From Halobellus sp. MBLA0158 (lineage in GTDB: Archaea; Halobacteriota; Halobacteria; Halobacteriales; Haloferacaceae), in assembly GCF_041477585.1 (NCBI RefSeq), contig NZ_JBGNYA010000001.1:1488001-1552000 (forward strand): DNA of 64,000 nucleotides, read 5' to 3'. Made by a program: the position numbers and the translations under genes. The notes beneath the pieces are model-generated. The model saw only the letters and a program-made list of their open reading frames with translations, searched no databases and was not told the origin of the DNA. Below, one piece after another: positions 32,286 to 60,151 of this stretch; within the stretch, counting starts at the first letter, position 1, and every line of letters begins with the position of its first letter.

Positions 32286-32293
32286 GTTATTTG
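32286..32293 (+). promoter_or_regulatory. TATA box of the acetaldehyde dehydrogenase-aldolase operon
   Basis: GTTATTTG is centred 29 bp before the ATG at 32318. Between it and the ATG lies TTTCGTACCGACC, which resembles the repeat at the dioxygenase promoter (CCGTACCGCTTA). Confidence 0.45.
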
Positions 32294-32317
32294 TACGTCA
32301 CTTTCGTACCGACCTGT

Positions 32318-34298: not shown

Positions 34299-34336
34299 TT
34301 CGGAGGAAACGGTTCGGTTTTTCTGCTCTCGATCGG

Positions 34337-34723: not shown

Positions 34724-34816
34724 ACCGGAAGGGACGCGGGCGGCGACATAAATTCAGGGGAATCGTCGGCGATGGGACGTACGCTCTCGCCCGCCCGCAC
34801 CGAGGCCGGACACCAA

Positions 34817-34824
34817 CCTATTTG
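34817..34824 (+). promoter_or_regulatory. TATA box of hydratase copy 2
   Basis: CCTATTTG is centred 28 bp before the ATG at 34848, predicting a leaderless transcript. Confidence 0.45.
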
Positions 34825-34847
34825 ACGCCCGACGGGGAAGCGAAGGT

Positions 34848-35624: not shown

Positions 35625-35648
35625 CGCGAAAAGCGACTCCTTCTTTTC

Positions 35649-36590
35649 TTATTCCGTGTACGGGATGCCGTCCATCTCGTACTGCGTGCCGAACCACTGG
35701 TGGTCCGACTCGGAGCCGATGCTCTCCTCCCAGACGACGGTCTCCCAGTCGGGCTCGAAGTTCAGGTAGCCGGGGCCGGCGAACAGCTCCAGGCGGATGC
35801 CGCTGGCGGGGTCCTTGACGTAGAGGTAGTTCGCGTTCGTGATCGCGTGCTTGCCCGGGCCGCCGTCGATCTCGACGTTGTTCTCCGAGAGGATGTCGGC
35901 GGCGTCCCACAGGTCCTGGAGGTGATCGAGGTGGTAGGCGATGTGGTGGAACTCGCGTGTGTCCTCTTCGAGGCGGTGGACCGCGAGGTCGTGCGGCAGC
36001 GGCGTCGTGGCGTGCCACCAGCCCCACGTCGTCCCGTCGGCGGACTTGAAGACCTCGTTGAGGCCCATCCCGAACTCCTCTTCGAAGAGTTCGGAGGTCG
36101 ACTCCGGCGAGCCGTCCTGGACGTGGGCGTGGTCGATCCGCTGGGGGTACACCCGGTTGGCGTACTCGGGGCTGTACCGCCGCATCGGGATGTTCGAGCG
36201 CTGCTTCCCGTCGATGTCGGGCTTGTCCATCTCGTAGTAGATCTCGAAGCGGTGGCCCGCGGGGAACTCGAACTGGATCGACTCGCCGATGCCGGCCTCG
36301 TGGCTGCCGTCGGTCCAGGTGACGTCCATTCCCAGTTCCTCGAAGCGCTCGGCGAACTCCTCGACGGACTCGGGGTTCTTCGCCCGGAGCCCGATGTGGT
36401 CGACGGCGCCCCGCTCGCCTTCAGTCAGGCTCATCGTGTGGTGCTCGTAGTCCCGGAGCCCGCAGAGATACGCCGTGTCGTCGTCGCGCTCGACGACTTT
36501 CATCCCCATCAGGTCACGGAAGAACCAAAGCGACTCCTCGAGGTCCGGCGTCTCGAACGCGATATGTCCGAGCTTGGCAAGTTCTGCCAT
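35649..36590 (-). CDS. Catechol 2,3-dioxygenase (extradiol, type I)
   Basis: This 313-residue two-domain VOC enzyme opens catechol next to the hydroxyls, giving 2-hydroxymuconate semialdehyde. The Fe(II) ligands of the C-terminal domain are all in place: His154 (RIDHAHVQ), His215 or 216 (REFHHIAYHLD) and Glu268 (IRLELFAG). The acid-base His248 (GKHAITNANYLY) and a Tyr just after it match the XylE layout. It is the key ring-cleavage step of the island. It is transcribed alone from a promoter with paired repeats. Confidence 0.95.
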   Translation of the reverse strand: MAELAKLGHIAFETPDLEESLWFFRDLMGMKVVERDDDTAYLCGLRDYEHHTMSLTEGERGAVDHIGLRAKNPESVEEFAERFEELGMDVTWTDGSHEAGIGESIQFEFPAGHRFEIYYEMDKPDIDGKQRSNIPMRRYSPEYANRVYPQRIDHAHVQDGSPESTSELFEEEFGMGLNEVFKSADGTTWGWWHATTPLPHDLAVHRLEEDTREFHHIAYHLDHLQDLWDAADILSENNVEIDGGPGKHAITNANYLYVKDPASGIRLELFAGPGYLNFEPDWETVVWEESIGSESDHQWFGTQYEMDGIPYTE

Positions 36591-40748: not shown

Positions 40749-42491
40749 ATGCTTCCCCCACATTCGCCCGACCGATCCGCGGACCGCACCGTCGCCGAAT
40801 CGATGCTCCTGTCGCTCGCCGAGTGCGGCGTGGAGTACGTCTTCGCCAACTTCGGCACCGACCACACGCCCTTCATCGAGGCCCACGCCCGACTGCGCGA
40901 GGAGGGCGAGCAACTCCCCGAGATCGTCGTCTGCCCCCACGAGTTCGTCGCGCTCTCGGCGGCGCACGGGTACGCCGTCGCGACCGGCGAGCCGCAGGCG
41001 GTCCTGGTCCACGTCGACGTCGGCACGCAGAACCTCGGAGCGGCGATGCACAACGCCCACCGCGCGAACGCGCCGGTGCTCGTCGTCGCCGGGCTCTCGC
41101 CGGTCTCGGACGCGGGCTATCCCGGCTCGCGGGACAACCCTATCCACTACGCCCAGGACGTGTTCGATCAGGCCTCGATCGTCGAGGAGTACTGCCGCTG
41201 GACGGGCGAGTACCGCGTCCCCGCGGACCCCCGTGAGATGATCCGTCGCGCGCTCTCCCGGACCGTCGGCACGCCGTCGGGGCCGGCGTACCTCACCGCC
41301 GCCCGCGAGGCGCTCGAAGCCCCCGATCCCACCGGCCCCGGTGGTTCGGACGACAGCGACGCCGACGTCCGACCGGTCCGAAAGACGCGGCCGGCCGCGC
41401 CCGATGACGCGGCGCTGGCACCGATCGAAGAGCGACTCCGGGCGGCAGAGCGGCCGCTCGTCGTCACGAGCAACGGCGTGGGACCGACCGGCGACCCCGA
41501 CCTCGACGCGCTCGTGGACTTCGCGGAGGCGGTCGGCGCGGGGGTCGTCGAGCACGTCCCCCACGTCCTCTGCTTCCCGCGGGATCACGAACTCCACGTC
41601 GGCTACGACCCGAGCGGGCCCGTCCGGGAGTGCGACCTGCTCGTCGTCGCCGAGTCCGACGTCCCCTGGGTGCCCTCCCAGGTCGAGATCCCCGCGGATC
41701 TCGACGTCGTCCAGATCGACACCGATCCCGGGAAAGGGACCTACCCGCACTGGCCCTTCGAGGTCGACGAGGCGGTGCTGGCCGACCCGGCCGCCGCGCT
41801 CCGCCGGCTCGCAGAGCGCCTCGCCGACACCGACGCGGGGGGCGACGGCGAAGCGTGGCGGGAGCGGCACCGCGAACGCCGCGAAGAGGCCACCGCGCGC
41901 GTCGAGCGGGCCCGAGCGGACGACCGACTAGACGCGAGAGTGCTCTCGGCGGCCATCGCCGACTACGTCGACGGCGACACCGTCGTCCTCCAGGGCACCA
42001 CGACGAACCGCGTCCCCGCGCTCGAACACATCCCGCAGTCCGAGCCGGGGACGTTCTTCTGGCGCGGCGGGGCCGGCCTCGGCTGGGCGGTCCCGGGCGG
42101 GATCGGCGCGAAGCTCGCCGATCCCGAAACGCGGGTCATCTCCCTCGTCGGCGACGGCGGCTACCTGTTCAGCAATCCCGCCGCGAGCGTCCTCGCGGCG
42201 AACAACGCCGACGCGCCGACCCTGAGCGTGATCTACCACAACGACGGCTGGGAGGCCGTCCGGCGGGCCACCCGGAAGCAACACGAAACGGGCGCGGCCG
42301 CGGCCCAGGGCGTCCCCGAGGGCGACTACGGCGAGACGATCGACCTCTCGCGCATCGCGACGATCAGCGACGCACACGCCCGCCGGGTCGACGATCTCGA
42401 CTCCCTCGACGACGCGCTGGACACGGCGGTCGCGGCCGTCGACGGAGGGCAGGACGCGGTTCTGGACGTTCGACTCGATCCGAAAGATTGA
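40749..42491 (+). CDS. Thiamine-diphosphate-dependent enzyme 1 (acetolactate synthase/benzoylformate decarboxylase-like)
   Basis: This 580-residue three-domain TPP enzyme has the activating Glu in VVCPHEFVALSAAHGYA, VDVGTQNLGAAMHNAHRANA in place of the usual P-G-x-x-N region, and the cofactor motif SLVGDGGYLFSNPAAS followed by IYHNDGW. The middle domain has CFPRDHELHVGYDPSGPV. The full-length architecture fits decarboxylases or carboligases of 2-oxo acids; an aromatic 2-oxo acid is an attractive substrate in this setting. A clearly related gene is at 53.1 kb, and each lies beside an ABC importer. Confidence 0.9.
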   Translation: MLPPHSPDRSADRTVAESMLLSLAECGVEYVFANFGTDHTPFIEAHARLREEGEQLPEIVVCPHEFVALSAAHGYAVATGEPQAVLVHVDVGTQNLGAAMHNAHRANAPVLVVAGLSPVSDAGYPGSRDNPIHYAQDVFDQASIVEEYCRWTGEYRVPADPREMIRRALSRTVGTPSGPAYLTAAREALEAPDPTGPGGSDDSDADVRPVRKTRPAAPDDAALAPIEERLRAAERPLVVTSNGVGPTGDPDLDALVDFAEAVGAGVVEHVPHVLCFPRDHELHVGYDPSGPVRECDLLVVAESDVPWVPSQVEIPADLDVVQIDTDPGKGTYPHWPFEVDEAVLADPAAALRRLAERLADTDAGGDGEAWRERHRERREEATARVERARADDRLDARVLSAAIADYVDGDTVVLQGTTTNRVPALEHIPQSEPGTFFWRGGAGLGWAVPGGIGAKLADPETRVISLVGDGGYLFSNPAASVLAANNADAPTLSVIYHNDGWEAVRRATRKQHETGAAAAQGVPEGDYGETIDLSRIATISDAHARRVDDLDSLDDALDTAVAAVDGGQDAVLDVRLDPKD

Positions 42492-42799: not shown

Positions 42800-43588
42800 T
42801 CACTCGGTCACTCGGACTCCTTCGGCGTCGGGACGCCACTCCATCACGCGTTCGTGGAGGGGCGCGAGGACGCCGTACTCGACGACGATCAGGAAGACGA
42901 CGAAGATGATGAGCCAACTCATCATCGTGGGGAGGTCGTACTGGTCGAAGTACCGGCGGAACATGAAGCCGACGCCCCGGGTCAGCAGGAACGCCTCGAC
43001 GAGCAGGGTGATCTTCCAGCCGATCGACAGCGCCGAGCGGAAGCTCGCGAACAGGAACGGCGCGAGCTGCGGGACGATGATGTCGGTGAACATCTGCACG
43101 CGATCGGCGCCGAAGAACTCGGCCATCTCCGCGAGGTCCGAATCGAGGTTCCGAGCGCCCTCCCACATATTCAGCGCCACGAACGGGGTGATGACGACCG
43201 GCACCGCGAAGAATCCGCTGCTCGCGTCGAAGCCGATCCAGATCGCCGACAGAAAGACGATCACGAGCGAGGGAACCGCGAGCCACGCGTAGATCCACGT
43301 CGAGATCGTGCTCTCCAGGGTCTCGCTTCGACCGAGTGCGATCCCCAGGAGCGTCCCGACGATCATCGAGACGATGAGCGAGGCGAAGAGCATCTCGATG
43401 GTCTTCCAGACGTGGTAGTAGAACATATGGTCGTACGGGCCGGGCGTCGTCAGTACGGTGACCAGCGAGTCTATGGTCTCGGGGAGTCCCGGCAGTACCT
43501 CCGGATACGCGACGCCGCCGGCGTACCAGATGACGAGCAGGACGACGATCGACGCGATGCTGTAGCCGAGCCGTTTTACCCGGTCCAT
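42800..43588 (-). CDS. ABC transporter permease, NitT/TauT type (module A, minus side)
   Basis: This is a 262-residue permease with about six helices. The cytoplasmic EAA-type loop EMAEFFGADRVQMFTDIIVP contacts the ATPase. The first helix region is SIASIVVLLVIWYAGGVAYP. Its start codon lies 1 bp after the stop of the ATPase gene, so the two are one operon. Family members take up sulfonates, nitrate, taurine or aromatic acids; the context favours an aromatic or organic acid. Confidence 0.92.
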   Translation of the reverse strand: MDRVKRLGYSIASIVVLLVIWYAGGVAYPEVLPGLPETIDSLVTVLTTPGPYDHMFYYHVWKTIEMLFASLIVSMIVGTLLGIALGRSETLESTISTWIYAWLAVPSLVIVFLSAIWIGFDASSGFFAVPVVITPFVALNMWEGARNLDSDLAEMAEFFGADRVQMFTDIIVPQLAPFLFASFRSALSIGWKITLLVEAFLLTRGVGFMFRRYFDQYDLPTMMSWLIIFVVFLIVVEYGVLAPLHERVMEWRPDAEGVRVTE

Positions 43589-43589
43589 C

Positions 43590-44396
43590 TCACTCCACCA
43601 CGTGCTCGTGGAACTCTCTGTACAGCTCCGCCTCGCGCTGGGCGATCTCGGGGTCGTCGTACTGTCGCGGACGGTCGATGCTGACGTCCCGTCGCGCGAA
43701 CATCTTGCCGTTCGAGTTCATCATATAGATGTAGTCCGAGAGGAACACCGCCTCGTTGATGTCGTGGGTGACGAAGAGGACGGTCTTCTGTTCCTGCTTC
43801 CAGATGTCGAGCAACTCCTCGCGGAGATCGCGGGCGGTGATCTCGTCGAGGCTGCTGAAGGGCTCGTCCATCAGGATGATCTCGGGTTCGATCGCGAGCG
43901 CGCGGGCGATGGCGACGCGCTGTTTCATCCCGCCGGAGAGCCGCGTCGGGTAGTTGTCCCCCTCCTCGTCGAGATTAACCATCTCCAGGTAGCGGGCGAC
44001 TCGGTCGTCCCACTCCGACTCGGGGACGCCCCGGGCTTCGAGCGCGAACTCGATGTTGCCTGCGACGGTTTTCCAGTCCAGCAGACGGGGTTCCTGGAAG
44101 ATGTACCCGAGCGAGAGATCGTCCGGTGAGACGTCGCGGCCGCCGCGTCGCATCGTCCCCTCGTTCGGTTCGACGAGCCCCGAGACCACGTTCATCAACG
44201 TGGTCTTTCCACAACCGGAGGGGCCGAGCAGTGAGACGAACGCGCCGGCCTCGACGTCGAGGTCGACCTCGTCGAGGACCTGAATACGACCCTGTCCGGG
44301 CTTGGGATAGTATTTGACGATGTCGCGTAGTTCCAGCGTGTCGCCCCCCGTATCGGATGGCGCTGCCGATACAGATTCCTCTTCGGCGGCCGTCAT
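43590..44396 (-). CDS. ABC transporter ATP-binding protein (module A)
   Basis: This 268-residue ATPase has Walker A LGPSGCGKTTLMNVVSG, Q-loop IFQEPRLLDW, signature RLSGGMKQRVAIARAL, Walker B IILMDEPFSSLDE and switch His in FVTHDINEA. Residues 1-25 are an acidic Ser-rich lead. ATG 44396 (MTAAEEES) is chosen; the longer frame is Pro-rich and unlike the family. It energises the two permeases of module A and is divergent from the binding-protein gene. Confidence 0.96.
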   Translation of the reverse strand: MTAAEEESVSAAPSDTGGDTLELRDIVKYYPKPGQGRIQVLDEVDLDVEAGAFVSLLGPSGCGKTTLMNVVSGLVEPNEGTMRRGGRDVSPDDLSLGYIFQEPRLLDWKTVAGNIEFALEARGVPESEWDDRVARYLEMVNLDEEGDNYPTRLSGGMKQRVAIARALAIEPEIILMDEPFSSLDEITARDLREELLDIWKQEQKTVLFVTHDINEAVFLSDYIYMMNSNGKMFARRDVSIDRPRQYDDPEIAQREAELYREFHEHVVE

Positions 44397-44587
44397 CGTC
44401 GTTCCCCCTCGTCCCACAGGAGAAGAACTGCGCGGGGATGATGTCGGAACATAGATCGTGTGAACGATTAGCGAAAGACGTGAGTAATATAATAATCTTT
44501 CCATAGCGGCGGGACGGATCGCCTCCGTCCCGCCCGCGAGAAATCTCCGGACCCGACGAAATCTATCCATCATAAACGTTCCCGGTA

Positions 44588-44596
44588 TTTTTATAT
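44588..44596 (+). promoter_or_regulatory. TATA box of the module A binding-protein operon
   Basis: TTTTTATAT is centred 28 bp before the ATG at 44620. It is a strong, leaderless-type promoter facing away from the ATPase-permease operon. Confidence 0.6.
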
Positions 44597-44619
44597 GTGT
44601 AGACTGACGTGGTCGTTGT

Positions 44620-45696
44620 ATGCAACGTGTTACCAGAAGGCGGTTTATCGCCGGTACAGGTGCAGCAGGCGTCGCTGGACTCGCCGGCTGTAGCGGGGGC
44701 AACGGAAACGGCGGCAGCACGGACACCGAGTCCGGCGGCGACAGCGACGGCGGCTCGTCTGGCACGACTGCGGGGTCGTCCGACGGGGGGCTCACGTCGG
44801 TCCGGATCCTCCTCCCCGAGGGGACGATTCACTATCCGATGTACGAGGCCGCCACCGACGCGGGGGTCTTCGAGGACGAGGGCATCGACCTGACGGTCGA
44901 TTACGCACCGTTCGGCGCACAGGTCCAGTCGCTCACAGGCGGCGAGGTCGACGTCAATATGGTGTCGATGATGCCGTACGTGAGCAACTACCTCAAAGGC
45001 GAAGACCTGGTCACGTTCGGCTGGAACGGCTGCCTCCAGTGCATTAACGGCTTGTACACGCGCGCGAGCAGCGATTACCAGTCGACCGCCGACCTCGAAG
45101 GCCAGCGGATCGGTGTCTGGTCGTGGGGCTCTTCGACCGTCCAGTCGTATCAGGCGGTCGTAGCCGAGGAGTCGGGTCTCCGCCTCCGTCAGGACTTCGA
45201 GACGACGACGGCGGCGCCGCCGGCCCTGCTCGGTCTGCTCACGGACGAGCAGGTCGACGGAGTGATCAACGTCAGCGGCCTCACGATCACGATGGAGGCC
45301 CAGCCCGACACCTACCGCCGCCTCTCACAGCTGAACGCGATGTGGCGCGAACGGGCCGGATACACGCTCCCCCTCACCGCGTGGTTCACGTACTCCGACT
45401 GGTACGAGAACAACACCGAGACCGCCGCGGGGCTGCTCCGCGGGGCGGAGGCGGCGACGACTCACTGGCGTGAGAACACCGCCTCGATCCTCGAAGAGTA
45501 CGGCGAGACCGCCTCGGTCGACACCCAAGCGAAGATCGACGTTGTCGACGAGTGGGCCAACGACGGGCAGGTGTTCCGCGGCGGCTGGGAGTCGGGCTAC
45601 ACCGACGCCAACTGGGACTTCATCAATCTGATGAACGAGTACGAGTTCGTCAGCGAAGTGCCCTCGCAGGACGAACTGCTCCGGAATCCGCTGTAA
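44620..45696 (+). CDS. ABC substrate-binding lipoprotein, NMT1/THI5-like (module A)
   Basis: This is a 358-residue exported protein. The Tat motif VTRRRFIAGTGAAG is followed by the lipobox LAGC, so it is translocated folded and lipid-anchored. A Gly/Ser/Asp-rich linker precedes the two-lobe binding domain (VRILLPEGTIHYPMYEAATD, GGEVDVNMVSMM). Such proteins bind small organic solutes for SsuABC-type importers. It forms an operon with the permease 21 bp downstream and is a paralog of the binding protein at 51 kb, though diverged. Confidence 0.92.
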   Translation: MQRVTRRRFIAGTGAAGVAGLAGCSGGNGNGGSTDTESGGDSDGGSSGTTAGSSDGGLTSVRILLPEGTIHYPMYEAATDAGVFEDEGIDLTVDYAPFGAQVQSLTGGEVDVNMVSMMPYVSNYLKGEDLVTFGWNGCLQCINGLYTRASSDYQSTADLEGQRIGVWSWGSSTVQSYQAVVAEESGLRLRQDFETTTAAPPALLGLLTDEQVDGVINVSGLTITMEAQPDTYRRLSQLNAMWRERAGYTLPLTAWFTYSDWYENNTETAAGLLRGAEAATTHWRENTASILEEYGETASVDTQAKIDVVDEWANDGQVFRGGWESGYTDANWDFINLMNEYEFVSEVPSQDELLRNPL

Positions 45697-45717
45697 CAGC
45701 CGCCTCGACGTCTCTCT

Positions 45718-46479
45718 ATGAACTCTTACATCACCGATCGAAACCTCGGCAAGAAGGCCCTCGTCGCGGTCGCCCTGCTGGCGGCCTGGCAGCTTGCCGC
45801 GCAGTTCTTCGCGTACTACGTCTTCCCGAGCGTCCCGGAGCTTCTCACCGCCACGCGGACGGTCATCACGGACCCGCAGTTCGGGACGTACCGAAGCAAC
45901 ATCTTCGACACGTTCCGCCGGCTGCTGGCCGGCTTTGCCATCTCGGTGGTCGTCGGCGCGATCGTCGGGACTGCGATGGGACTCCGCGACGACGTCGAGG
46001 CGTTCCTCCGGTCGTGGATCGTCCTCGGCCTGTCGGTGCCGGCTATCGCGGTCGCGTTCGCGCTCATCATCGCCATCGGAATCTCCGAGTGGGTGCCGGT
46101 GTTGACGGTCGTGATCGTGGGCGTGCCCTTCGTCATCCTCAATATGTGGGAGGGGACTCAGGAGCTCGATCCGGAGATCACCGAGATGGCGGAGTTCTTC
46201 GGCGCGAGCACGCTCCAGAAGTACCGCGACATCCTCCTGCCGCAGGTGCTCGAATACCTCTTTCCCTCGATGTACTGGGGCCTCGTGGTCTCCTGGAAGG
46301 TCCTCTTCATCGCGGAGGTCTTCGGCGCGGGCTCGGGCGTCGGCTACATGGTCAACTACTGGTTCCAACAGCAGCGCGTCGACCTGCTCTTGGGCTGGGT
46401 GCTCATCCCCGTCTTACTCATCATCCTCGCTCAGGAGGGCCTCCGGGCCGCCGAGCACCGACTGATGAAGTGGCGGTGA
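45718..46479 (+). CDS. ABC transporter permease, NitT/TauT type (module A, plus side)
   Basis: This 253-residue permease has about six helices and the EAA-type loop EMAEFFGASTLQKYRDILLP, nearly the same as the minus-side permease. The two would form a heterodimeric channel. It follows the binding-protein gene with no visible ribosome site. Confidence 0.92.
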   Translation: MNSYITDRNLGKKALVAVALLAAWQLAAQFFAYYVFPSVPELLTATRTVITDPQFGTYRSNIFDTFRRLLAGFAISVVVGAIVGTAMGLRDDVEAFLRSWIVLGLSVPAIAVAFALIIAIGISEWVPVLTVVIVGVPFVILNMWEGTQELDPEITEMAEFFGASTLQKYRDILLPQVLEYLFPSMYWGLVVSWKVLFIAEVFGAGSGVGYMVNYWFQQQRVDLLLGWVLIPVLLIILAQEGLRAAEHRLMKWR

Positions 46480-47526: not shown

Positions 47527-48255
47527 TCAGTAGTAGGACAGTCCGGGGTCGGCGTTGATCGCCTGCCCCGTCATCGCGCCGCTGTCGGGACCAGCGAGAA
47601 AGGCGACGACACCGGCGATGTCCTCGGGCTCGACTACGCGATCCAGCGCCTGCTTTTCGACGTAGTCTTCGAGATACGCCTCGCCGGCCTGCTGGGACGC
47701 CTCCGACCAGGTGTAGCCCGGCATCACGGCGTTGACCCGCACGTCGACGTCGCCGACCTCGGCCGCCATCGCGCGCGTCATCGACAGCACGGCGCCCTTC
47801 GAGGCCACGTAGTGGAGGAAGCCGGGCACGCCCATCGTGACGACCGATGAAGAGATGTTGACGATGCGCCCGCCGCCCGCGAGGTCGGGGAGCGCGTGCT
47901 TCGCGGCCAGGAACGGTCCCTTCGCGTTCACCGCCATCACGGTGTCCCACTCTTCCTCGTCGATCTCGTCGAACCGCTTCTTGTCGGTCACCAGCGGCGC
48001 GTAGTAGGCCGCGTTGTTGACGAGGATGTCCGTATCGATATCTTGGAAGACGTCGCGCATCGCCGCCTCGTCGGTGACGTCGCCCTCTCGGTACTCGGCG
48101 CTGCCGCCCGCCGCCTCGATCCGTTCGACGGTCTCGCTCCCGTCGGCGACGTCGACCACGACGACGTGGGCGCCCTCGTTCGCGAGTCGCTCGGCGATGG
48201 CTTGTCCGATCCCCGTCGCCGCTCCCGTCACGACCGCGGTTTCGTCTGTGAGCAT
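47527..48255 (-). CDS. Short-chain dehydrogenase/reductase (SDR)
   Basis: This 242-residue classical SDR has the cofactor motif VVTGAATGIGQAIAERLA, NNAAYYAP, the catalytic Ser in VNISSSVVTMG and YVASKGAVLS with Tyr-x3-Lys. It reduces or oxidises a carbonyl/alcohol with NAD(P). An Asp near the end of the second strand (VVVVDVAD) favours NAD. Its role in the island is unknown. GTG 48258 directly precedes ATG 48255; the ATG is chosen. Confidence 0.93.
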   Translation of the reverse strand: MLTDETAVVTGAATGIGQAIAERLANEGAHVVVVDVADGSETVERIEAAGGSAEYREGDVTDEAAMRDVFQDIDTDILVNNAAYYAPLVTDKKRFDEIDEEEWDTVMAVNAKGPFLAAKHALPDLAGGGRIVNISSSVVTMGVPGFLHYVASKGAVLSMTRAMAAEVGDVDVRVNAVMPGYTWSEASQQAGEAYLEDYVEKQALDRVVEPEDIAGVVAFLAGPDSGAMTGQAINADPGLSYY

Positions 48256-48310
48256 CACGCGAAGTAACGCAGGCCCGCAGTATAACGATTTGCGTCGGTC
48301 GCGGACGGTC

Positions 48311-48923: not shown

Positions 48924-49733
48924 TCAGAGGACGCTGAAGTCCGCTTCCTTGCGGTACGCGAACACCTTGCGTTCGAGGGGCCGGAGGACGAGCATCTCCA
49001 GTGCGAAGACGATCACGACGAACACGACCGCCCAGGCCATCGCGGTGTCGTACTGGTAGCGCGAGAACGCCTCGATCGCGCGGTAACCGACGCCGGAGTT
49101 CGACGCGAAGATCTCCGCCTGGGTTTCGATTTTCCAGGAGATCGCCAGGCCGAACCGGACGGCGGTGAAGAGCGCGGGCGCGATGCTCGGGAGGATCATC
49201 CGGCGGAGCAACCGCCCCCGGGAGATGTCGAACGACCGGCTCATCCGGATGAGAGTGGGATCGATGTCCTCGACGCCCTTCCAGATCCGCAGCGAGATGT
49301 AGGGGAAGACGGTGACGGCGGTCGCGACGACGGGCGCCGCGATGCCGAACCCGAAGATGATCGTCGTGATCGCCGCCCACGCGATGCCCGGAATCGAGAG
49401 GGCGATGATGATGATCGGCGTCGAGAACTGCTCGCCGAAGTTGTTGATGCCCATCGCGATTCCGATGGCGGCGCCGACGAAGAACGCGCCGATGAAACCG
49501 AGGAACGTCCGGAAGAAGGTCGCCTCCATATGCGTCCAGACGACGCCGGAGGCGAGCAGTTCGACCGACGCGGTGACCGTCTCCATCGGCCCTGGGAAGA
49601 GCCCGCGGGGGAAGACGATCGTCACCAGGTACCACGCCGCGAGCCCGCCCACGAGGCCGATTATGCGGGCGGCCCAGGCGTCGCCGATGGTCGACCGGAA
49701 CGGGATCCGAGACGAACGGCTGCTCGTCGCCAT
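48924..49733 (-). CDS. ABC transporter permease, NitT/TauT type (module B, minus side)
   Basis: This 269-residue permease has about six helices. The cytoplasmic coupling loop near IRMSRSFDISRGRLLRRMILP takes the place of the EAA motif. It is the equivalent of the minus-side permease of module A. A gap of 157 bp separates it from the ATPase gene, more than in module A, so a separate promoter is possible. Confidence 0.92.
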   Translation of the reverse strand: MATSSRSSRIPFRSTIGDAWAARIIGLVGGLAAWYLVTIVFPRGLFPGPMETVTASVELLASGVVWTHMEATFFRTFLGFIGAFFVGAAIGIAMGINNFGEQFSTPIIIIALSIPGIAWAAITTIIFGFGIAAPVVATAVTVFPYISLRIWKGVEDIDPTLIRMSRSFDISRGRLLRRMILPSIAPALFTAVRFGLAISWKIETQAEIFASNSGVGYRAIEAFSRYQYDTAMAWAVVFVVIVFALEMLVLRPLERKVFAYRKEADFSVL

Positions 49734-49890: not shown

Positions 49891-50700
49891 TCACGCGATC
49901 GCGTGGAACCGGTCGATCGCCTCCTGACGGACCTTCAGGAACTCCTCGGAATCCACGTCGCGCGGGCGTTCGAGATCGATCGACATATCGTCGAAGATCC
50001 GGCCGTCGCCGAGCATCAGGATGCGATCGGAGAGTTCGATCGCTTCCGTGATGTCGTGGGTAACGAAGAAGACGGTCTTGCCGAGCTGCTGCCAGATTCG
50101 GATGAGTTCCTCGCGAAGCTCCTCGGCGGTGATCTCGTCGAGATTGCTGAACGGCTCGTCCATAATGAGGATCTCCGGGTCGATGCTGAGCGCTCGGGTG
50201 ATGCCGACGCGCTGGCGCTGGCCGCCCGAGAGCTGTGAGGGGTACTTGTCGTAGTGCTCGGAGAGGCCGACCAGGTCCATGTACTCCTCGGCCAGCTCCC
50301 GGGTGTAGTCCGGGTTGTCCTCGTGAACGTATTCGATGTTCTCGACGCAGGTGTTCCACGGCAGGAGGCGCGGCGATTGGAAGACGTGCCCCAGCGTCAC
50401 CTCCTCGCCCTCGCTGTTGGCCTCGAACTCGACGCGGCCCGCCGTGGGTTCGAGGACGCCGCTTATGATGTTCAGCATCGTCGACTTCCCGCTTCCTGAC
50501 CGCCCGATCAGCGTGACGAACGACCCCGGTTCGATGTCGAAAGAGACGTCCGAGAAGACCGTTTCTCGACCCTCTTCGGTGTCGAACTCCTTTGTGAGGT
50601 CTCGGACGTGGATCGCGCCCGCCGCCGAGGACCCGTGGGCGATCCCTTCCACGTCGTCGCCGTCCTCGGCACCCTTGGCCCGCTTCGCCTCAGAGGCCAT
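49891..50700 (-). CDS. ABC transporter ATP-binding protein (module B)
   Basis: This 269-residue ATPase has Walker A LIGRSGSGKSTMLNIISG, Q-loop VFQSPRLLPW, signature QLSGGQRQRVGITRAL, Walker B ILIMDEPFSNLDE and the switch His in FVTHDITEA. The N-terminal lead is acidic and disordered. It pairs with the two permeases of module B and is divergent from the binding-protein operon. Confidence 0.96.
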   Translation of the reverse strand: MASEAKRAKGAEDGDDVEGIAHGSSAAGAIHVRDLTKEFDTEEGRETVFSDVSFDIEPGSFVTLIGRSGSGKSTMLNIISGVLEPTAGRVEFEANSEGEEVTLGHVFQSPRLLPWNTCVENIEYVHEDNPDYTRELAEEYMDLVGLSEHYDKYPSQLSGGQRQRVGITRALSIDPEILIMDEPFSNLDEITAEELREELIRIWQQLGKTVFFVTHDITEAIELSDRILMLGDGRIFDDMSIDLERPRDVDSEEFLKVRQEAIDRFHAIA

Positions 50701-50933
50701 TCCGACCACCTCTGGAGGACGCCGGCCGGACAGACGGTGGAAGCGATGTGCAGACGGTGTGAGAACTGATTTGGCTCATAACTCTGCGCTACCATTCCTC
50801 GTGGGTGTACTTTAGGTTTGCTACGCTACCACTACCCACGCCGATCGGCCACCTTCGTGTTTCCTTCCACACGCGCGGCGGATCGGCCGAGGACCGGCCT
50901 GAGATCTGCGGGTTCGTCACCCTCACCGGAGGA

Positions 50934-50964: not shown

Positions 50965-52197
50965 ATGCCACGGAAGAAAGAGGCATTTCGATCAGCTAGT
51001 GGTGTAAACAGACGACGCTTCATCAAGGCGGCCGGCGCCGGGGCCGTCGCGACCACGCTCGCCGGCTGTACGAGCGGAGGGAACGGCGGCGGTTCCGGCG
51101 GCGACAGTGGAAGCGGCGGCGACTCCGACTCGGACTCCGGCGACGGAAGTACAGACAGCGGGGGCGGCGGGAGCGGAGACCTGACCTCCGTCTCCTTCGC
51201 GACGCCGCCGGTCGGGATGCCGGTCAACATCGTGATCGAGTACTACCTCGCGGCGAACGATCTCATCCAGCCGCGCTTCGAGGAGGACGGCTACCGGCTC
51301 GACTACGAACTCACCTTCGAGGACGCGACGCTCTTCGCGTCGGGACAGATCGATATGGGGACCGTGAGCTGGGTCGAAGACGCCCGACTCGGCGTCGAAC
51401 AGGACCAACAGCTCGTCGCCTTCGGGAACATCGAGGGCGTGGTCTCCACGCCGTGGGTCGAGGCCGGCGGCCCCTACGATCCGGCCGAGACCGGGAGCGT
51501 CCAGGCGTCGCTCGACAAGATCGTCGAGGAGGACGCCCGGTTCGGGATTCCGGGCTGGGCCGCCGGCGCGGTCCCGCACCTCCAGAACATCCTTCAGGAG
51601 AAGTACGGCTACACGCTCGCCCAGGACGGCGGCGACTTCAACGTCCAGACGACCGAACGGGGAACGATGCCGCAACTCACCCTTCGCGGTGACCTCGCGA
51701 CCGCCGTCCACTCGGCTTCCTCGGCGGGGCTCACCGAAATCGTCAACGGCGAACTCAAGCCGCTGTTGTGGATCTGGAACGAGTACCTCGATCAGGGCTG
51801 GGGTCGGCCGCCGCTCGTCAGTCTCTCCACCCGACTCGATTTCGCCGAGGAGAACCCCGAGGTCCTGCTCAATATGATCAATATGTGGAGCGAGGGCCTC
51901 AATTACGTCCAGGACAACATCCCGGACATCGCCGAGGACCCGCAGGGCCAGGAGACCCTCGAAGCGGAGAGCCAGGAGGAAGCGCGCTTCCTGATGGACC
52001 TCTTCGCGGGCAACGAGGTCAGCCAGATCGAGAGCCTCCAGCGTTCGGCGCTGTACTCCGAGGTCGGCCTCGACGAGCAGTCCGTCGAGGACGCTCGCAA
52101 CGTCCTGAACGTGATGGAGGAACTGGGTCAGATCCCCTCCGGATGGCAGGACCACATCACGTTCATGACGGTCTCGGACCTGGAGGATATGGTCTGA
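50965..52197 (+). CDS. ABC substrate-binding lipoprotein (module B)
   Basis: This is a 410-residue protein. It has the Tat motif VNRRRFIKAAGAGAV and lipobox LAGC, then a long Gly/Ser/Asp linker. The binding domain starts VSFATPPVGMPVNIVIEYYL. It is longer than the module A protein and only distantly similar, so the ligand may differ. It is the first gene of an apparent operon with a permease (6 bp) and TPP enzyme 2 (about 110 bp). Confidence 0.9.
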   Translation: MPRKKEAFRSASGVNRRRFIKAAGAGAVATTLAGCTSGGNGGGSGGDSGSGGDSDSDSGDGSTDSGGGGSGDLTSVSFATPPVGMPVNIVIEYYLAANDLIQPRFEEDGYRLDYELTFEDATLFASGQIDMGTVSWVEDARLGVEQDQQLVAFGNIEGVVSTPWVEAGGPYDPAETGSVQASLDKIVEEDARFGIPGWAAGAVPHLQNILQEKYGYTLAQDGGDFNVQTTERGTMPQLTLRGDLATAVHSASSAGLTEIVNGELKPLLWIWNEYLDQGWGRPPLVSLSTRLDFAEENPEVLLNMINMWSEGLNYVQDNIPDIAEDPQGQETLEAESQEEARFLMDLFAGNEVSQIESLQRSALYSEVGLDEQSVEDARNVLNVMEELGQIPSGWQDHITFMTVSDLEDMV

Positions 52198-52203: not shown

Positions 52204-53025
52204 ATGAGCACGTCACAGCTAGGCGGAAGCGTCGGGCGGGCGCTGGTCGGCGACCGGCGGGTCGTCTTCGTGGAGTCGATCCTCGCGCTGCTGCTCGTCT
52301 GGGAGCTGAGCGCCCGCCTCTTCGGGATCACGGACCTCATCGCCTCGCCGATCCTCGTCGGCGTGGCGATGTACGAACTGCTCCTCAGCGGGGAGTGGGT
52401 GACGCACTTCGTCGCGTCGATGCAGCGGATCCTGTACGGTTTCGTCGCCGCGCTCGTCGTGGGTGTGATCGGCGGCATCGTCCTCGGAGTGAGTAGCTTC
52501 TGGGGGAAGGTGCTCCGGTACTACGTCCTCGTCGGGATGGCGGTTCCGGGGCTGTTCGTAGTCATCTTCACCGCGATGGCCTTCGGGATCAGCGACACGA
52601 CGCCGACGCTCGCGACGGCGATCATCACCGCGCCGTTCGTCGTCGATATGATCCAGAGCGGCGTCGAGAACGTCGACTCCGACCTCCTGGATATGTCGAG
52701 CGCGTTCGGCGTCTCGCGAACCCGTGTCTACCGACGGGTGCTGTTCTCGTCGATCCTCCCCGAGGTGTTCTCCAGCATCCGGTTCACCTTCTCCGTCGCC
52801 TGGAAGGTCACCATCCTCGCGGAGGTCGTGATCTCGAACGTCGGCATCGGCTTCCTGATCCGCGACAGCCTCGGCCGGTTCTCGATGATCGGCGTGCTCC
52901 AGTACGTCGTGCTGTTCGTCGTCGTGATGATGGTCATCGAGTACGGCGTCTTCCGCAAGACCGAGGAGTACCTCTTCGCCTGGCGGGAGGACGTCAAGTC
53001 CTCGATGGGCACCGGTCCGCGGTAG
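52204..53025 (+). CDS. ABC transporter permease, NitT/TauT type (module B, plus side)
   Basis: This 273-residue permease has about six helices and the coupling loop DLLDMSSAFGVSRTRVYRRV. It forms the second half of the module B channel. It is followed by TPP enzyme 2, so transport and first metabolism could be co-expressed. Confidence 0.92.
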   Translation: MSTSQLGGSVGRALVGDRRVVFVESILALLLVWELSARLFGITDLIASPILVGVAMYELLLSGEWVTHFVASMQRILYGFVAALVVGVIGGIVLGVSSFWGKVLRYYVLVGMAVPGLFVVIFTAMAFGISDTTPTLATAIITAPFVVDMIQSGVENVDSDLLDMSSAFGVSRTRVYRRVLFSSILPEVFSSIRFTFSVAWKVTILAEVVISNVGIGFLIRDSLGRFSMIGVLQYVVLFVVVMMVIEYGVFRKTEEYLFAWREDVKSSMGTGPR

Positions 53026-53138: not shown

Positions 53139-54851
53139 GTGTCAGACCCCGATCAGACCGTAGCCGACCGCACCGCCGCCGCGAGGTTCCTGCGCGCGTT
53201 TCGCCGCCAGGGCGTCACGCGCGTCTTCGCGAACCTGGGCACCGACCACACGCCGCTGCTCGAAGCCGCCGCCGCGATCAGGCGTGAGGGACGGGACGAC
53301 GAGATCCCCGAGATCGTCTCCTGTCCGCACGAGTTCGCCGCGATGAGCGCGGCCCACGGCCACGCGGTCGTCTCCGGCGAACCGCAGGTCGTCCTGGTCC
53401 ACGTCGACGTCGGAACCCAGAACCTCGGCGCGGCGATGCACAACGCCCACCGCGCGAACGCGCCGGTCTTCGTGCTCGCCGGCCTCGCGCCCGTGACGGA
53501 CGCCGGGCACTCCGGATCGCGCGATCACCCGGTCCACTACTTTCAGGACGTGTTCGACCAGCCCGGCATCGTCCGGGAGTACACCCGCTGGAGCGACCAG
53601 TACCGCCCGCCGGCCGATCCGGCCGAGACCGTCCGACGCGGACTGGAGCGGGCCGGCTCGGAGCCGGCCGGACCGGTCTACGTGACCGCGACCCGCGAGG
53701 CGCTCAGCGAGCCGGTGGAGGCGACGGCAACGGGCGAACCGCGGCGGGTCAGAAGCGGCGGAGCGGACGCCGCGGGAGTAGCGCGTCTCCGCGAGTTAGT
53801 CCGCGGGGCCGAACGCCCGGCCGTGATCACGAGCGACATCGGTCGCCACCCGGCCGACGAGCGCGTGTCGGCGCTCGTCGACTTCGCCGAATCTGCCGGT
53901 GCTGGCGTCGTCGAGCAGACGCCGACGACGCTCTGTTTCCCTCGCGACCACGAGCAGCACCTCGGCTTCGACCCGGAAACGGCGCTCGATCGTGCGGATC
54001 TCGTCGTCGTCGCGGACGCCGACGTCCCGTGGATCCCGAGCGGGGACGTCCCCGACACGGACGCACGGGTCGTCCAGATCGACGGCCAGCCGACGAAGCC
54101 CGCCTACCCCCGCTGGCCGTTTCCGATCGACGAGACGATCCGAGCGGACCCGGCGGCGACGCTCGAAGCGGTCTCCGGAGAGCTAGATCCCGCCGACGGC
54201 TCCACTGGGCGAGAGTTCTGGCAGGATGTCGCCGCCGAGCGTTACGCCGACGCCCGGGAGCGCCTGGAGGCCGACCGGAGTACCGAGCGGCTCACGCCGA
54301 CGGTCCTCTCGGCCGCAATTGCCGACGTCGTTGACGAGGACACCGTGATCGTCGAGGACGCCGTGACGAGCCGGCCGGCGATTATGTCACAGATCCCGCT
54401 CACGGAGCCCGGATCGTACTTCTGGAAAGGCGGCGCCGGACTCGGCTGGGCCGGCGGCGCGGGGATCGGAGCAAAGCTCGCAGACCCCGACAAGCGGGTG
54501 ATCTCGCTCGTCGGCGACGGCTCGTATCTCTTCGCCAACCCCTCCGCGTGCGCGCTGTTCGCCGCCGAGACCGCCGCTCCGACGCTAACCGTCGTCTACG
54601 ACAATCAGGGATGGAACGCGGTTGAGGGCGCGACCACCGCACAGTACCCGGAGGGCGCGGCCGCCGAGGCCGCCGTACCGGAAAGCCACGTCGAGACCGA
54701 GATGGACCTCTCCGCGCCCGCACAGGTCGTAGACGCACACACGCGGGTCGTGCGCGACCCCGGCGACCTCGGTGAGGCGCTCGACGCAGCGGTCGCCGCG
54801 GTCGACGACGGGACGCCCGCGGTGCTGGACGTGAAGGTCGAACGGCCCTAG
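53139..54851 (+). CDS. Thiamine-diphosphate-dependent enzyme 2 (paralog of the gene at 40.7 kb)
   Basis: This 570-residue TPP enzyme is collinear with enzyme 1: VSCPHEFAAMSAAHGHAVV with the activating Glu, VDVGTQNLGAAMHNAHRANA identical over 20 residues, CFPRDHEQHLGFDPE, and the cofactor motif SLVGDGSYLFANPSAC followed by VYDNQGWNA. The start is GTG 53139 behind a GGAGGG ribosome site; a TTG at 53124 is less likely. As for copy 1, decarboxylation or carboligation of a 2-oxo acid is expected. Confidence 0.9.
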   Translation: MSDPDQTVADRTAAARFLRAFRRQGVTRVFANLGTDHTPLLEAAAAIRREGRDDEIPEIVSCPHEFAAMSAAHGHAVVSGEPQVVLVHVDVGTQNLGAAMHNAHRANAPVFVLAGLAPVTDAGHSGSRDHPVHYFQDVFDQPGIVREYTRWSDQYRPPADPAETVRRGLERAGSEPAGPVYVTATREALSEPVEATATGEPRRVRSGGADAAGVARLRELVRGAERPAVITSDIGRHPADERVSALVDFAESAGAGVVEQTPTTLCFPRDHEQHLGFDPETALDRADLVVVADADVPWIPSGDVPDTDARVVQIDGQPTKPAYPRWPFPIDETIRADPAATLEAVSGELDPADGSTGREFWQDVAAERYADARERLEADRSTERLTPTVLSAAIADVVDEDTVIVEDAVTSRPAIMSQIPLTEPGSYFWKGGAGLGWAGGAGIGAKLADPDKRVISLVGDGSYLFANPSACALFAAETAAPTLTVVYDNQGWNAVEGATTAQYPEGAAAEAAVPESHVETEMDLSAPAQVVDAHTRVVRDPGDLGEALDAAVAAVDDGTPAVLDVKVERP

Positions 54852-56431: not shown

Positions 56432-57421
56432 ATGCCCGAGATCATAGACGCGACTTCGCACATTATGTCCCACGAGGCGCTCGACGAACTGGAATCGGTC
56501 CATCCCAGTTCCGAGATCGAGAGCCTCCGTAACGCTCCGCGGATGTTCGACATTGAGGGACGGGTCGACTACCTCGACGCGAACGGCATCGACCGGCAGG
56601 TGATCAACCTCGCGGCGCCGATGATCTGGCAGGGCGTCGACCCCGACGACGGCATCGAGGCCACGCGCGTCGCCAACGACGAGATCGCCCGGATCGGCGA
56701 GGAACACGACCGGTTCATCCCGACCGGCACGGTGCCGTTCCTCACCGACGAGTACGTCGACGAGGCACGCCGTTGCGTCGAGGAGTTGGGGATGAACGGC
56801 ATCCAGATCTTCTCGAACATCAACGGGCGGATGCTCGACGACGATGAGTTCGAGGAGTTCTACGCCACGATCGACGACCTCGACGTCCCCCTGTGGATCC
56901 ATCCCCAGCTGGCGGAGTGGCACGACTACGACAACTCCCACACGTGGATCTACAAGATGCTGGCGTGGCCGTTCGACACCAACATCGCGCTGGCGCGGCT
57001 TATCTTCTCGGGCGTCCTCGACCGCTACGAGAACATCGAAATCATCTCTCATCACCTCGGCGGCTCGTTCCCATACCAGATCGGCCGCATCCGCTCGTGG
57101 TACCAGACGCGCAAGGAAGAGCCCGAGCTGTATCAGAATCCCGCGATGGCCGACCTCTCGGAGCCGCTCGACGCGTACTTCGACCGCATCTACGGCGACA
57201 CCGCGGTCAGCAGCCAGGGCGAGTCGTATCCCCTCGAATGCGGGCTGGAGTTCTTCGGCACCGACAACGTCGTCTACAGCGCCGACTACCCGTTCGGTCC
57301 CGACAAGGGTCAGTACTGGGCGACCGAGATCATCCCGCTCATCGAGGACCTCGACATCCCCGAAGCGGACAAGGAGAAGATCCTCTCGGGCAACATCAAG
57401 CGGCTCCTCGATCTGGAGTAA
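56432..57421 (+). CDS. ACMSD/LigW-type amidohydrolase, candidate aromatic acid decarboxylase (copy 2)
   Basis: This is a 329-residue paralog of the gene at 28.5 kb. The first motif reads Thr8-Ser-His10 (IDATSHIM), again lacking the first His/Glu of HxH/ExH. His157 (LWIHPQ), His207/208 (ISHHLGG) and Asp285 (YSADYPF) are kept. It is followed 113 bp later by the LigM-like gene on the same strand, so the pair may act in sequence: O-demethylation, then decarboxylation. That order is inference. Confidence 0.82.
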   Translation: MPEIIDATSHIMSHEALDELESVHPSSEIESLRNAPRMFDIEGRVDYLDANGIDRQVINLAAPMIWQGVDPDDGIEATRVANDEIARIGEEHDRFIPTGTVPFLTDEYVDEARRCVEELGMNGIQIFSNINGRMLDDDEFEEFYATIDDLDVPLWIHPQLAEWHDYDNSHTWIYKMLAWPFDTNIALARLIFSGVLDRYENIEIISHHLGGSFPYQIGRIRSWYQTRKEEPELYQNPAMADLSEPLDAYFDRIYGDTAVSSQGESYPLECGLEFFGTDNVVYSADYPFGPDKGQYWATEIIPLIEDLDIPEADKEKILSGNIKRLLDLE

Positions 57422-57500
57422 CGCCAACCGACAGCCATCCGCCGCGGGCGAGCCATACCACCGCGGTTCCTTTTCGTGTCGGACGCGTTGCCGAGTAGGA

Positions 57501-57510
57501 TATATTTAAG
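57501..57510 (+). promoter_or_regulatory. TATA box of the LigM-like O-demethylase gene
   Basis: TATATTTAAG is one of the strongest TATA sequences in the window. It is centred 29-30 bp before the ATG at 57535, so the transcript should be leaderless or nearly so. Confidence 0.65.
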
Positions 57511-57534
57511 TATGTGGGTCGAACCCTTCGCTGT

Positions 57535-58878
57535 ATGGACCCTGCAGAGATTCAAGCGTCCGGTAATCCAGTCGAAGTGCTCCGCCGCAAGGGCGGCGAT
57601 TACACGGACAACTTCCCCGTCGTTCCGAACGAGATCACGAACTGGCGTGACGAGCAGCGCGCCGTGACCGAGACCGTCTCGCTGGCGAACCTCTCGCATC
57701 ATATGACCTCGCTCCGCGTCACCGGCCCCGACGCGGAAGACCTACTGCGTGATCTGAGCGTCAACAGCTTCGAGAACTACGAGGTCGGCAAGGCGAAGCA
57801 GCTGGTGATGTGCAATCCGAACGGTCACATCATCGGCGACGGGCCGATGCTCAAACTCGCCGAGGACGAGTACTACAGCGCCGGGATGCTGGCGGCGAAC
57901 TGGGTGCGGTACAACGTCGAGACCGGGGACTACGACGTCGAGGTCGAGACCGAGCCGCGGACCTCCGCGCAGGAGGGCGATCCCGAGAAGTTCGTCTTCC
58001 AGGTCCAGGGTCCCAACGCCAGGCCCGTGCTCGAACAGGTGACAGACGACGATCTCGATTCGATCCCGTTCTACAACTTCGATACGATCGACCTCGCGGG
58101 CGTCGAGACCATCGCGCTCGGCCACGGGATGTCCACGGAGTTCGGCTTCGAGTTCATCGGCCCCTTCGAGAAGGCAGACCAAGTGCGGGAGGCCATCGTC
58201 GAGGCTGGCGAAGACTACGGGCTCAGACAGTTGGGATCGCGGGCCTACCACACGCTCTCGGTGAAGCTCGGATGGGTCCCTCCGGGCGTGCCGCCGCTGT
58301 ATAACGTCGATGAGATGGCTGACTACCGCGAGTGGCTCGACGCCGATAGCCGAGAGGCGACCTACTCCATCGACGGAAGCTTCGTCTCCGAGGACATCTC
58401 GGATTACTATATGGACCCGCTCGAACTCGGGTACGAGAAACTCATCAGTTTCGACCACGACTTCGTCGGCCGCGAGGCGCTCGAAGCGAAGGTCGAAGAT
58501 CCCGACCGGACCCTCGTCTCGCTGGCTTGGGAGGAAGACGACGTAATCGACGTCTACGCGTCGCTGTTCCGCGAGGGACCGAGTAACAAGTATATGGAAC
58601 TGCCGCGAATCGGCTGGGGCCGCGCGAACTACGACGAAGTACTGAAAGACGGCGAACTGATCGGTCTCTCGCACTCGCGCTCGTACGAGTACGACGTTGG
58701 TACCATCATCTCGCTGTGTAGTATCGACGTCGATCACGCCGAGCCGGGCACGGAGGTCACGCTCGTGTGGGGCGAAGAGGACTCGCCGAACCCGAAGGTC
58801 GAGCGCCACGAACAGACCGAGATCACGGCCACGGTCGGCGAAGTGCCGTACTCGCCCGATCGACGGAAGGGCGAGTAG
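57535..58878 (+). CDS. LigM-like tetrahydrofolate-dependent aromatic O-demethylase (GcvT fold)
   Basis: This is a 447-residue aminomethyltransferase-fold protein. It resembles Sphingobium LigM/DesA along its whole length by recall: ITNWRDEQRAV then SHHMTSL (His55/56), KAKQLVM with GHIIGDG, GSRAYHT with Tyr238 in the place of LigM Tyr247, DYREWL, GSFVSEDISDYYMDP and SFDHDFVGREALEAKVED. LigM moves the methyl group of vanillate to tetrahydrofolate, giving protocatechuate. Haloarchaea use folate, so the acceptor is plausible. The glycine-cleavage T protein is shorter and lacks these stretches. Start MDPAEIQASG fits the TATA box. Confidence 0.88.
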   Translation: MDPAEIQASGNPVEVLRRKGGDYTDNFPVVPNEITNWRDEQRAVTETVSLANLSHHMTSLRVTGPDAEDLLRDLSVNSFENYEVGKAKQLVMCNPNGHIIGDGPMLKLAEDEYYSAGMLAANWVRYNVETGDYDVEVETEPRTSAQEGDPEKFVFQVQGPNARPVLEQVTDDDLDSIPFYNFDTIDLAGVETIALGHGMSTEFGFEFIGPFEKADQVREAIVEAGEDYGLRQLGSRAYHTLSVKLGWVPPGVPPLYNVDEMADYREWLDADSREATYSIDGSFVSEDISDYYMDPLELGYEKLISFDHDFVGREALEAKVEDPDRTLVSLAWEEDDVIDVYASLFREGPSNKYMELPRIGWGRANYDEVLKDGELIGLSHSRSYEYDVGTIISLCSIDVDHAEPGTEVTLVWGEEDSPNPKVERHEQTEITATVGEVPYSPDRRKGE

Positions 58879-59392
58879 ACCAGTCGGATCGCCGTTTTTC
58901 CGGTCGTTCTCGCATTTCTCTCTCGTCGCTTCGGTTCCTGGTCGGATTCCTCCTGCGGATCTTCTGGCGATCTCGGTACCGGCGAAGCATCCATCCCGCG
59001 GCTCCGTGGGACGGAACGCGTGATCCGCCTGGAAGGTATCCCGTCCCAGGCTCAAATTCCGACAGTCTCGGAAAATAAAACACGAAAGATTGTGAACTAT
59101 TACCTCGCACCCGGTAAAAATAACGTATGTACATATGTTACTTTTACCCATCACCGCTCGATTCAGGTCGAGATCACGCGACGATGCCCGTCTGCGGTGA
59201 TTCGACAGTTTCGGAACGAAGAAGACGTCTGTGTGTATAGGTAACATATAACTATATTTGGATCAGACCACCGAGAACGCCGCCGTCACACGCTTCGTAA
59301 GCTGAAACCGAATTCCGAGTCTGTCGGAGGAAAATTGGGCGTTACGGGATCGCAAAGCTAACGTTTCGTGGTCCTAAATGGGATGTAAGACA
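58879..59392. other. 514-bp spacer with a near-palindrome and T-run
   Basis: There is no credible gene; short frames here are not acidic. A CGCCGTTTTTCC run soon after the LigM-like stop could end its transcript. An 18-bp near-palindrome, AACGTATGTACATATGTT (59122-59139), stands in an AT-rich patch. The region separates the catabolic island from the IclR gene at 59.4 kb. Confidence 0.6.
59122..59139. promoter_or_regulatory. 18-bp near-palindrome, candidate regulator site
   Basis: AACGTATGTACATATGTT is symmetrical about its centre except for one pair. Its first 11 bases match AATGTATGTAC at 27593-27603, before the first IclR gene, at 10 of 11 positions. Confidence 0.4.
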
Positions 59393-60151
59393 ATGACAAA
59401 CGACGCTGTGAAATTGCGTTCGGTCCAGCGCGTCTCCGAGATTGTCGAACTGCTCCAGGAGCGCGGACCGATGGGGACCACCGAAATCACGGAGGCGTTA
59501 GACGTGCCGACGAGCACGGCCCACGACTACCTCTCGACGCTCTATAACCTCGAATATCTGGTCAAAATCGACGGGAAGTACGACCTCGGTCTCCGACTGT
59601 TAGATCACGGCATCGCGGCGCGGGATCGTCATCCGATCGCCCGCGAAGGGAAATCGACGATCGAGCAGTTGGCGAATGCGACAGGCGAGGCCGCGTGGCT
59701 CGTCACCGAGGAGCACGGAATGGGCGTCTACCTCGATTACGCGCTCGGCGAACACGCGGTTCAGACCCACGCTCGGATCGGAACCCGATCGCACCTCCAC
59801 TATCTGGCTTCCGGCAAGGCGATCCTCGCGCACCTCTCCGAGGAGCGCGTCGACGAAATCGTCGACCGCCACGGATTCGCACAGCAGACAGAGCGCACGA
59901 TCGACTCCCGTGAGGCACTCTCCGCCGAACTCGAGGCGACGCGGGAACGCGGCTACGCGCTCAACGACCAGGAGAACGTCGAGGGGGCGCGTGCGGTCGG
60001 CAAAGCCATCATCGTCGACGGCGAGGTCGTCGGCGCGATCAGCATCGTCGGACCGGCGAACCGCCTGACCGATCACCAGCTGAAAGACGGCATCGTCGAT
60101 CAAATCCTCGGTGCCGCGAACGAACTGGAATTGAAACTCAGTCAGGCGTGA
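59393..60151 (+). CDS. IclR-family transcription regulator (island right edge)
   Basis: This is a 252-residue regulator. The winged helix (about 6-70) includes MGTTEITEALDVPTSTAHDY; the effector domain has THARIGTRSHLHYLASGKAI and KAIIVDGEVVGAISIVGPAN. It is related to but distinct from the regulator at 27.6 kb. Placed directly after the LigM-like gene, it probably controls part of the island. ATG 59393 (MTNDAVKLRSVQRV) is preferred over 59378. Confidence 0.93.
   Translation: MTNDAVKLRSVQRVSEIVELLQERGPMGTTEITEALDVPTSTAHDYLSTLYNLEYLVKIDGKYDLGLRLLDHGIAARDRHPIAREGKSTIEQLANATGEAAWLVTEEHGMGVYLDYALGEHAVQTHARIGTRSHLHYLASGKAILAHLSEERVDEIVDRHGFAQQTERTIDSREALSAELEATRERGYALNDQENVEGARAVGKAIIVDGEVVGAISIVGPANRLTDHQLKDGIVDQILGAANELELKLSQA

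Follow-up and report, generated by a model that had tools for sequence, protein, structure and literature searches.

A 447-residue protein encoded at positions 57535..58878 of a 64,000-nucleotide stretch of the Halobellus sp. MBLA0158 genome (hereafter the window) is, as judged by profile scores and phylogeny, a haloarchaeal LigM/DesA-family member that branches deeply. We consider it likely that this protein is a tetrahydrofolate (THF)-dependent O-demethylase of an aryl methyl ether whose substrate would be bound without the Arg122 anchor of the vanillate enzymes. The family is already known, and the point of interest is the folate route in an archaeon.

The gene and its family

The window lies on a 3.1-Mb contig of a 3.29-Mb genome. 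The gene and its candidate promoter element are as follows.

57535..58878, + strand: LigM/DesA-family protein gene (447 aa; ATG at 57535; stop codon ending at 58878)
about 57498..57511, + strand: TATA-like promoter element GGATATATTTAAGT that precedes the ATG and is shared with the H. rarus and H. captivus orthologs

The open reading frame has a GC3 of 0.84 and differs from its H. clavatus ortholog by 23, 15 and 141 changes at the first, second and third codon positions, respectively, a substitution pattern typical of a conserved protein, which supports that the frame is truly coding. The closest named relatives are those of H. clavatus (91%), H. rarus (86%) and H. captivus (85%), followed by that of Halarchaeum rubridurum (71%). 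Because the TATA-like box is only about 25 bases from the ATG, a leaderless transcript is suggested for this gene.

Residues 6-444 of the 447 align with LigM, the vanillate/3-O-methylgallate O-demethylase of Sphingobium SYK-6 (PDB 5x1i/5tl4; E=4.9e-103, 349 bits, 41% identity), a match that by its E-value is far above chance level, whereas the best GcvT match (E=3e-22) covers residues 34-223, mainly the folate domain. DesA (syringate O-demethylase; 446.8 bits, full length) and LigM (418.2 bits) are the top NCBIfam models, and the GcvT models both failed (91.3 bits against a cut-off of 300 and 69.5 against 235.85). The sequence-only reading had proposed a full-length likeness to LigM/DesA rather than to glycine-cleavage T protein, and this is borne out, as are the motifs that it had pointed to: SHHM (residues 54-57), GSRAY (234-238) and GSFVSEDISDYY (281-292) are all found in the protein.

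A 57-row maximum-likelihood tree, which was midpoint-rooted and in which the bacterial rows were sampled from plasmids only, separates the LigM-type rows from the GcvT-like rows with support of 100/100. Within it, the protein is found in a deep haloarchaeal clade of five species (four Halobellus and Halarchaeum; 100/100) that is outside a 98/97 clade containing 16 bacterial LigM/DesA-type rows and many other haloarchaeal paralogs. Both leading NCBIfam scores are also far below their curated equivalog cut-offs, which are 800 bits for DesA (NF047633) and 580 bits for LigM (NF047885). Given these scores and the tree placement, the protein belongs to the LigM family and yet is neither a LigM nor a DesA ortholog; the earlier identification as LigM-type thus holds for family membership and fails for orthology.

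A glycine-cleavage T protein or the folate domain of a sarcosine/dimethylglycine dehydrogenase-type enzyme would have the PF01571 folate-binding domain in common with our protein. This identity is nevertheless ruled out by the tree split and the GcvT scores, the full-length residue match goes to LigM, and the genome possesses distinct GcvT-like and longer dehydrogenase-type copies; we regard it as refuted, with next to no probability left to it.

Catalytic residues and the aryl pocket

With LigM residue numbers assigned via the chain offset, LigM His60, Tyr247, Trp256 and Glu215 correspond to His56, Tyr238, Trp247 and Glu206 of the Halobellus protein, and all four are kept. Tyr238, the tyrosine of GSRAY, had been put forward as the counterpart of LigM Tyr247, and the alignment agrees: together with His56 it is invariant across 26 rows, and an equivalent of Tyr247 is missing from all four GcvT-like rows. 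Harada et al. reportedly found in 2017 that His60 and Tyr247 are essential in LigM. In that enzyme Tyr247 acts on the methoxy oxygen of the substrate, and Glu215 is a folate-site residue.

The aryl pocket has changed. Relative to LigM, Gln57 is replaced by Leu53, Arg122 by Met118 and Tyr31 by Phe27. Most bacterial family members retain Gln57 and Arg122, including the Sphingobium and Novosphingobium relatives that are found beside MetF, PurU and FolD; 12 of 17 bacterial rows have Arg at position 122, and none of the 36 archaeal rows does. LigM Arg122 presumably binds the aryl acid. Because the pocket differs at Gln57 and Arg122, vanillate is unlikely to be the main substrate, and the true substrate is probably not plain vanillate; vanillate and syringate, the substrates first suggested for this protein, are both doubtful. 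A loss of LigM active-site residues, which the sequence-only reading had named as grounds for rejection, is not found outright: the catalytic pair is kept and the two pocket residues are replaced. An AlphaFold model of the protein with four orthologs reached a pLDDT of only 38.6 and was discarded.

These pocket replacements also bear on the possibility that the protein still works as a genuine LigM or DesA, demethylating vanillate/3-O-methylgallate or syringate, and that only its sequence has drifted. The two top-scoring NCBIfam models, the retained catalytic residues and an aromatic-catabolism context with catechol meta-cleavage genes in the window are all in line with this explanation. The shortfalls in score, the position outside the clade with all 16 bacterial LigM/DesA-type rows and the loss of Gln57 and Arg122 argue against it, and we consider it unlikely. 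Specialization within this kind of chemistry has been described in bacteria: Dmt, Dmt50 and Dmt06 are THF-dependent aryl O-demethylases that act on dicamba, and Dmt06 uses neither vanillate nor syringate (PMC9404685), so such enzymes can specialize away from both compounds. The Dmt enzymes are compared with the Halobellus protein here by the description of their reaction.

Gene neighbourhood and proposed pathway

The genes around the LigM-like gene were compared across five loci, which are the window and those of four other species, as far as the available flanks allowed. The features of the window that are considered here are listed below.

27598..36590, no strand assigned: catechol meta-cleavage cluster, about 21 kb from the LigM-like gene
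40749..42491, + strand: paralog of the ThDP-dependent enzyme (54% identity)
42800..46479, no strand assigned: second nitrate/taurine-type ABC transporter (permeases, ATPase and substrate-binding protein), with counterparts retained in H. clavatus and Halarchaeum
47527..48258, - strand: short-chain dehydrogenase, kept in the H. clavatus and Halarchaeum loci
48924..49733, - strand: ABC transporter permease
49891..50709, - strand: ABC transporter ATP-binding protein, nitrate/taurine type
50965..52197, + strand: ABC transporter substrate-binding lipoprotein
52204..53025, + strand: ABC transporter permease, nitrate/taurine type
53139..54851, + strand: ThDP-dependent enzyme (PRK08327 equivalog, above cut-off), in 3/5 loci within the contig flanks
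54873..56315, - strand: aldehyde dehydrogenase, in 5/5 loci
56432..57421, + strand: PF04909 amidohydrolase, adjoining the LigM-like gene in 5/5 loci
59121..59140, no strand assigned: 20-bp palindrome TAACGTATGTACATATGTTA (TAACA-N3-GTAC-N3-TGTTA), between the LigM-like gene and iclR
59378..60151, + strand: IclR-family regulator, conserved downstream of the LigM-like gene in Halobellus

The constant companions in the five loci are the PF04909 amidohydrolase, the aldehyde dehydrogenase, the nitrate/taurine-type ABC genes and the IclR regulator, while the short-chain dehydrogenase and the ThDP enzyme are each found in three of the five within the flanks. The amidohydrolase is related to the group of ACMSD, 5-carboxyvanillate and gamma-resorcylate decarboxylases and has T-x-H instead of the first H-x-H, the first His being Thr. 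The nearest solved relatives of the ThDP enzyme are benzoylformate decarboxylases; the equivalents of Glu47, His70 and His281 are kept in the alignment, and Ser26 is replaced by Thr. The meta-cleavage cluster contains genes for an IclR regulator, a further PF04909 amidohydrolase, a semialdehyde dehydrogenase, an acetaldehyde dehydrogenase, a 4-hydroxy-2-oxovalerate aldolase, a 2-oxopent-4-enoate hydratase and a catechol 2,3-dioxygenase-like protein, of which the acetaldehyde dehydrogenase and the aldolase score above their cut-offs.

We propose that the protein most likely moves a methyl group from an aryl methyl ether to THF, so that the products would be a phenol and 5-methyl-THF. Tyr238 and His56 would engage the ether oxygen in the way that Tyr247 and His60 do in LigM, and an MTHFR from another part of the genome would drain the 5-methyl-THF. 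The substrate is probably a methoxylated aromatic compound that makes no use of the Arg122 anchor. The neighbouring genes fit a pathway that starts with a methoxylated aryl-glyoxylate or aldehyde, passes through the acid and ends in meta-cleavage. As read from these neighbours, import would come first; the ThDP enzyme would then decarboxylate the aryl-glyoxylate, and the aldehyde would be oxidized. O-demethylation would follow, after which the PF04909 enzyme would form a catechol by decarboxylation, ready for meta-cleavage. Points against this proposal are the changed pocket, the scores far below the cut-offs, the lack of an adjoining folate gene and the presence of MTHFR in 60 sampled haloarchaea without the family. 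The earlier suggestion of an aromatic O-demethylase stands with regard to family, catalytic Tyr and His and aromatic-catabolism setting, and falls with regard to LigM/DesA orthology.

The wider fold family covers enzymes for other methylated and methylenedioxy compounds, which is counted against the aryl-ether reading. If the protein instead removed, with THF, a methyl or methylene group from an N-methyl, S-methyl or methylenedioxy compound, this would accord with the GcvT fold family, whose members include DMSP demethylase, the dimethylglycine enzymes and two demethylenases, BrdA and SesA (PMC5547118), as well as with the altered pocket and the adjoining nitrate/taurine-type transporters. However, Tyr247, which the four GcvT-like rows lack, is kept here along with His60, the neighbouring enzymes are of aromatic type, and BrdA, which has about 27% identity to LigM, is on another branch (PMC5547118). 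We assign this explanation a rather low probability and prefer an aryl methyl ether as the substrate.

The palindrome downstream of the LigM-like gene recurs at 20 sites in the genome at <=1 mismatch, while a control with the reversed pattern gave 0. Four sites are in the window (59121-59140, 63041-63060, 42690-42709 and 29497-29516) and 16 elsewhere in the genome; of 16 sites inspected, 13 have an IclR-family gene no more than about 2 kb away, and five of the seven LigM-family loci have a site within 3 kb. Judging from this distribution, the palindrome is probably an IclR-family operator. Another motif, TTCCGA-N5-TCGGAA, shows no enrichment in the window over shuffled sequence.

In the same region, a transposase-like open reading frame recognized by eye (40007-40651) lies shortly before the start of the first ThDP gene and is consistent with a mobile catabolic island, and a protein of the aldehyde:ferredoxin oxidoreductase family (PF02730/PF01314; 36720-38396) is encoded beside the catechol dioxygenase-like gene. 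A pairing of ThDP and LigM-like genes across phyla was also considered; because the Thermomicrobium and Bosea neighbours are merely 23-26% identical, no such conservation is claimed.

Folate route and paralogs

The genome contains two MTHFR genes (PF02219) and two FolD genes. No MTHFR or other folate gene adjoins the LigM-like gene of the window. One MTHFR gene (contig C1, 2252989-2253843) directly follows a LigM-family paralog (C1, 2251471-2252808) and is itself followed by genes for a branched-chain-type ABC transporter, an HpaI-type aldolase and a C23O-type extradiol dioxygenase; LigM-like, MTHFR and ABC-transporter genes are arranged likewise on a plasmid of Halobellus limi. MTHFR is also found within about 12 kb of a LigM-family gene in genomes G129, G170, G165, G093 and G117. 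Among 293 sampled haloarchaeal genomes of the order, MTHFR is present in 11/11 with the LigM family and in 60/282 without it (Fisher p=9e-8); counted by genus, the figures are 7/7 and 21/80 (p=2e-4). Bacterial members often adjoin MTHFR, and many also adjoin PurU, FolD or aromatic ring-cleavage genes. The characterized Agrobacterium Atu1420 locus is an example of such a bacterial neighbourhood (PMC7797058), and it has been argued that LigM works with MTHFR (PMC12585457), a link that the haloarchaeal family shares along with the THF-binding fold.

As haloarchaeal LigM-family genes adjoin or co-occur with MTHFR, FolD and folate-synthesis genes, a folate route for the family in haloarchaea, as the sequence-only reading had envisaged, is well supported by genomic context, with the reservation that none of these genes is beside the gene at 57535..58878. 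The Halobellus genome shows no sign of the other two main systems for O-demethylation, as neither the VanA_C domain of Rieske VanA (PF19112) nor the corrinoid-protein domain B12-binding_2 (PF02607) has a match there; 4/14 and 9/14 control genomes, respectively, match.

The methoxyaromatic metabolism of archaea, which the sequence-only reading described as known mainly in methanogens, extends beyond them: aryl O-demethylation is reported for Methermicoccus (PMC8630106) and also for Archaeoglobus (PMC8359953) and, through MtgB, for Bathyarchaeia (PMC10989822). All these systems are corrinoid-dependent and come from anaerobes, and they were the only archaeal ones in the literature searched. Their Mto/Mtg proteins achieve the same outcome, removal of the methyl from an aryl methoxy group, and are unrelated to the LigM family (PMC8630106, PMC8359953, PMC10989822). 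Papers on LigM/DesA-type enzymes concern bacteria (PMC9296663, PMC8027834, PMC8091115, PMC9404685), and a search of full-text literature, with subscription papers mostly outside it, found no report of folate-dependent aryl O-demethylation in archaea.

On balance, we lean towards a joint interpretation in which some haloarchaea, patchily, would have a complete, corrinoid-free and folate-based aryl O-demethylation system, the first in Archaea, with many LigM-family enzymes that differ in substrate, an MTHFR devoted to the system and, in some cases, additional genes for folate synthesis, and in which the gene at 57535..58878 would found a new specificity that is linked with a decarboxylase and with the meta-cleavage of catechol. 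If true, the use of lignin-derived methoxyaromatics would extend to salt environments and be tied to haloarchaeal one-carbon metabolism, and salt-tolerant enzymes with new aryl pockets would be at hand. The expansion to seven full-length LigM-family genes, plus one fragment, in a single genome makes substrate specificity directly testable.

One of these paralogs (C1, 374483-375706; about 8484-9707 of locus L063) is without both catalytic residues. It belongs to a subclade, with relatives in two haloarchaea (G073 and G165) and one Agrobacterium (L077:11961-13301), in which His60 is replaced by Phe or Thr and Tyr247 by Ser or Phe; because both residues are lost, the chemistry of this subclade must differ. 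In the vicinity of the paralog are genes for two PF04909-like amidohydrolases and ABC genes of the nitrate/taurine type. The example of this subclade raises the question of whether the protein of the window has likewise lost or switched its activity and serves another role. We regard this as highly improbable, as the protein retains both residues and its orthologs are apparently under purifying selection, given the excess of third-position changes.

On a Halostagnicola larsenii plasmid (L076, 13497-19302), a LigM-family cluster is followed by FolD, anthranilate/aminodeoxychorismate synthase (pabAB)-type genes and folP, which may constitute a dedicated folate supply. The LigM-like fragment of the Halobellus genome is C-terminal, is on a 184-kb replicon (C2, 55733-56404; about 9734-10405 of locus L064) and is about 50% identical to the protein of the window; it looks like a decayed copy.
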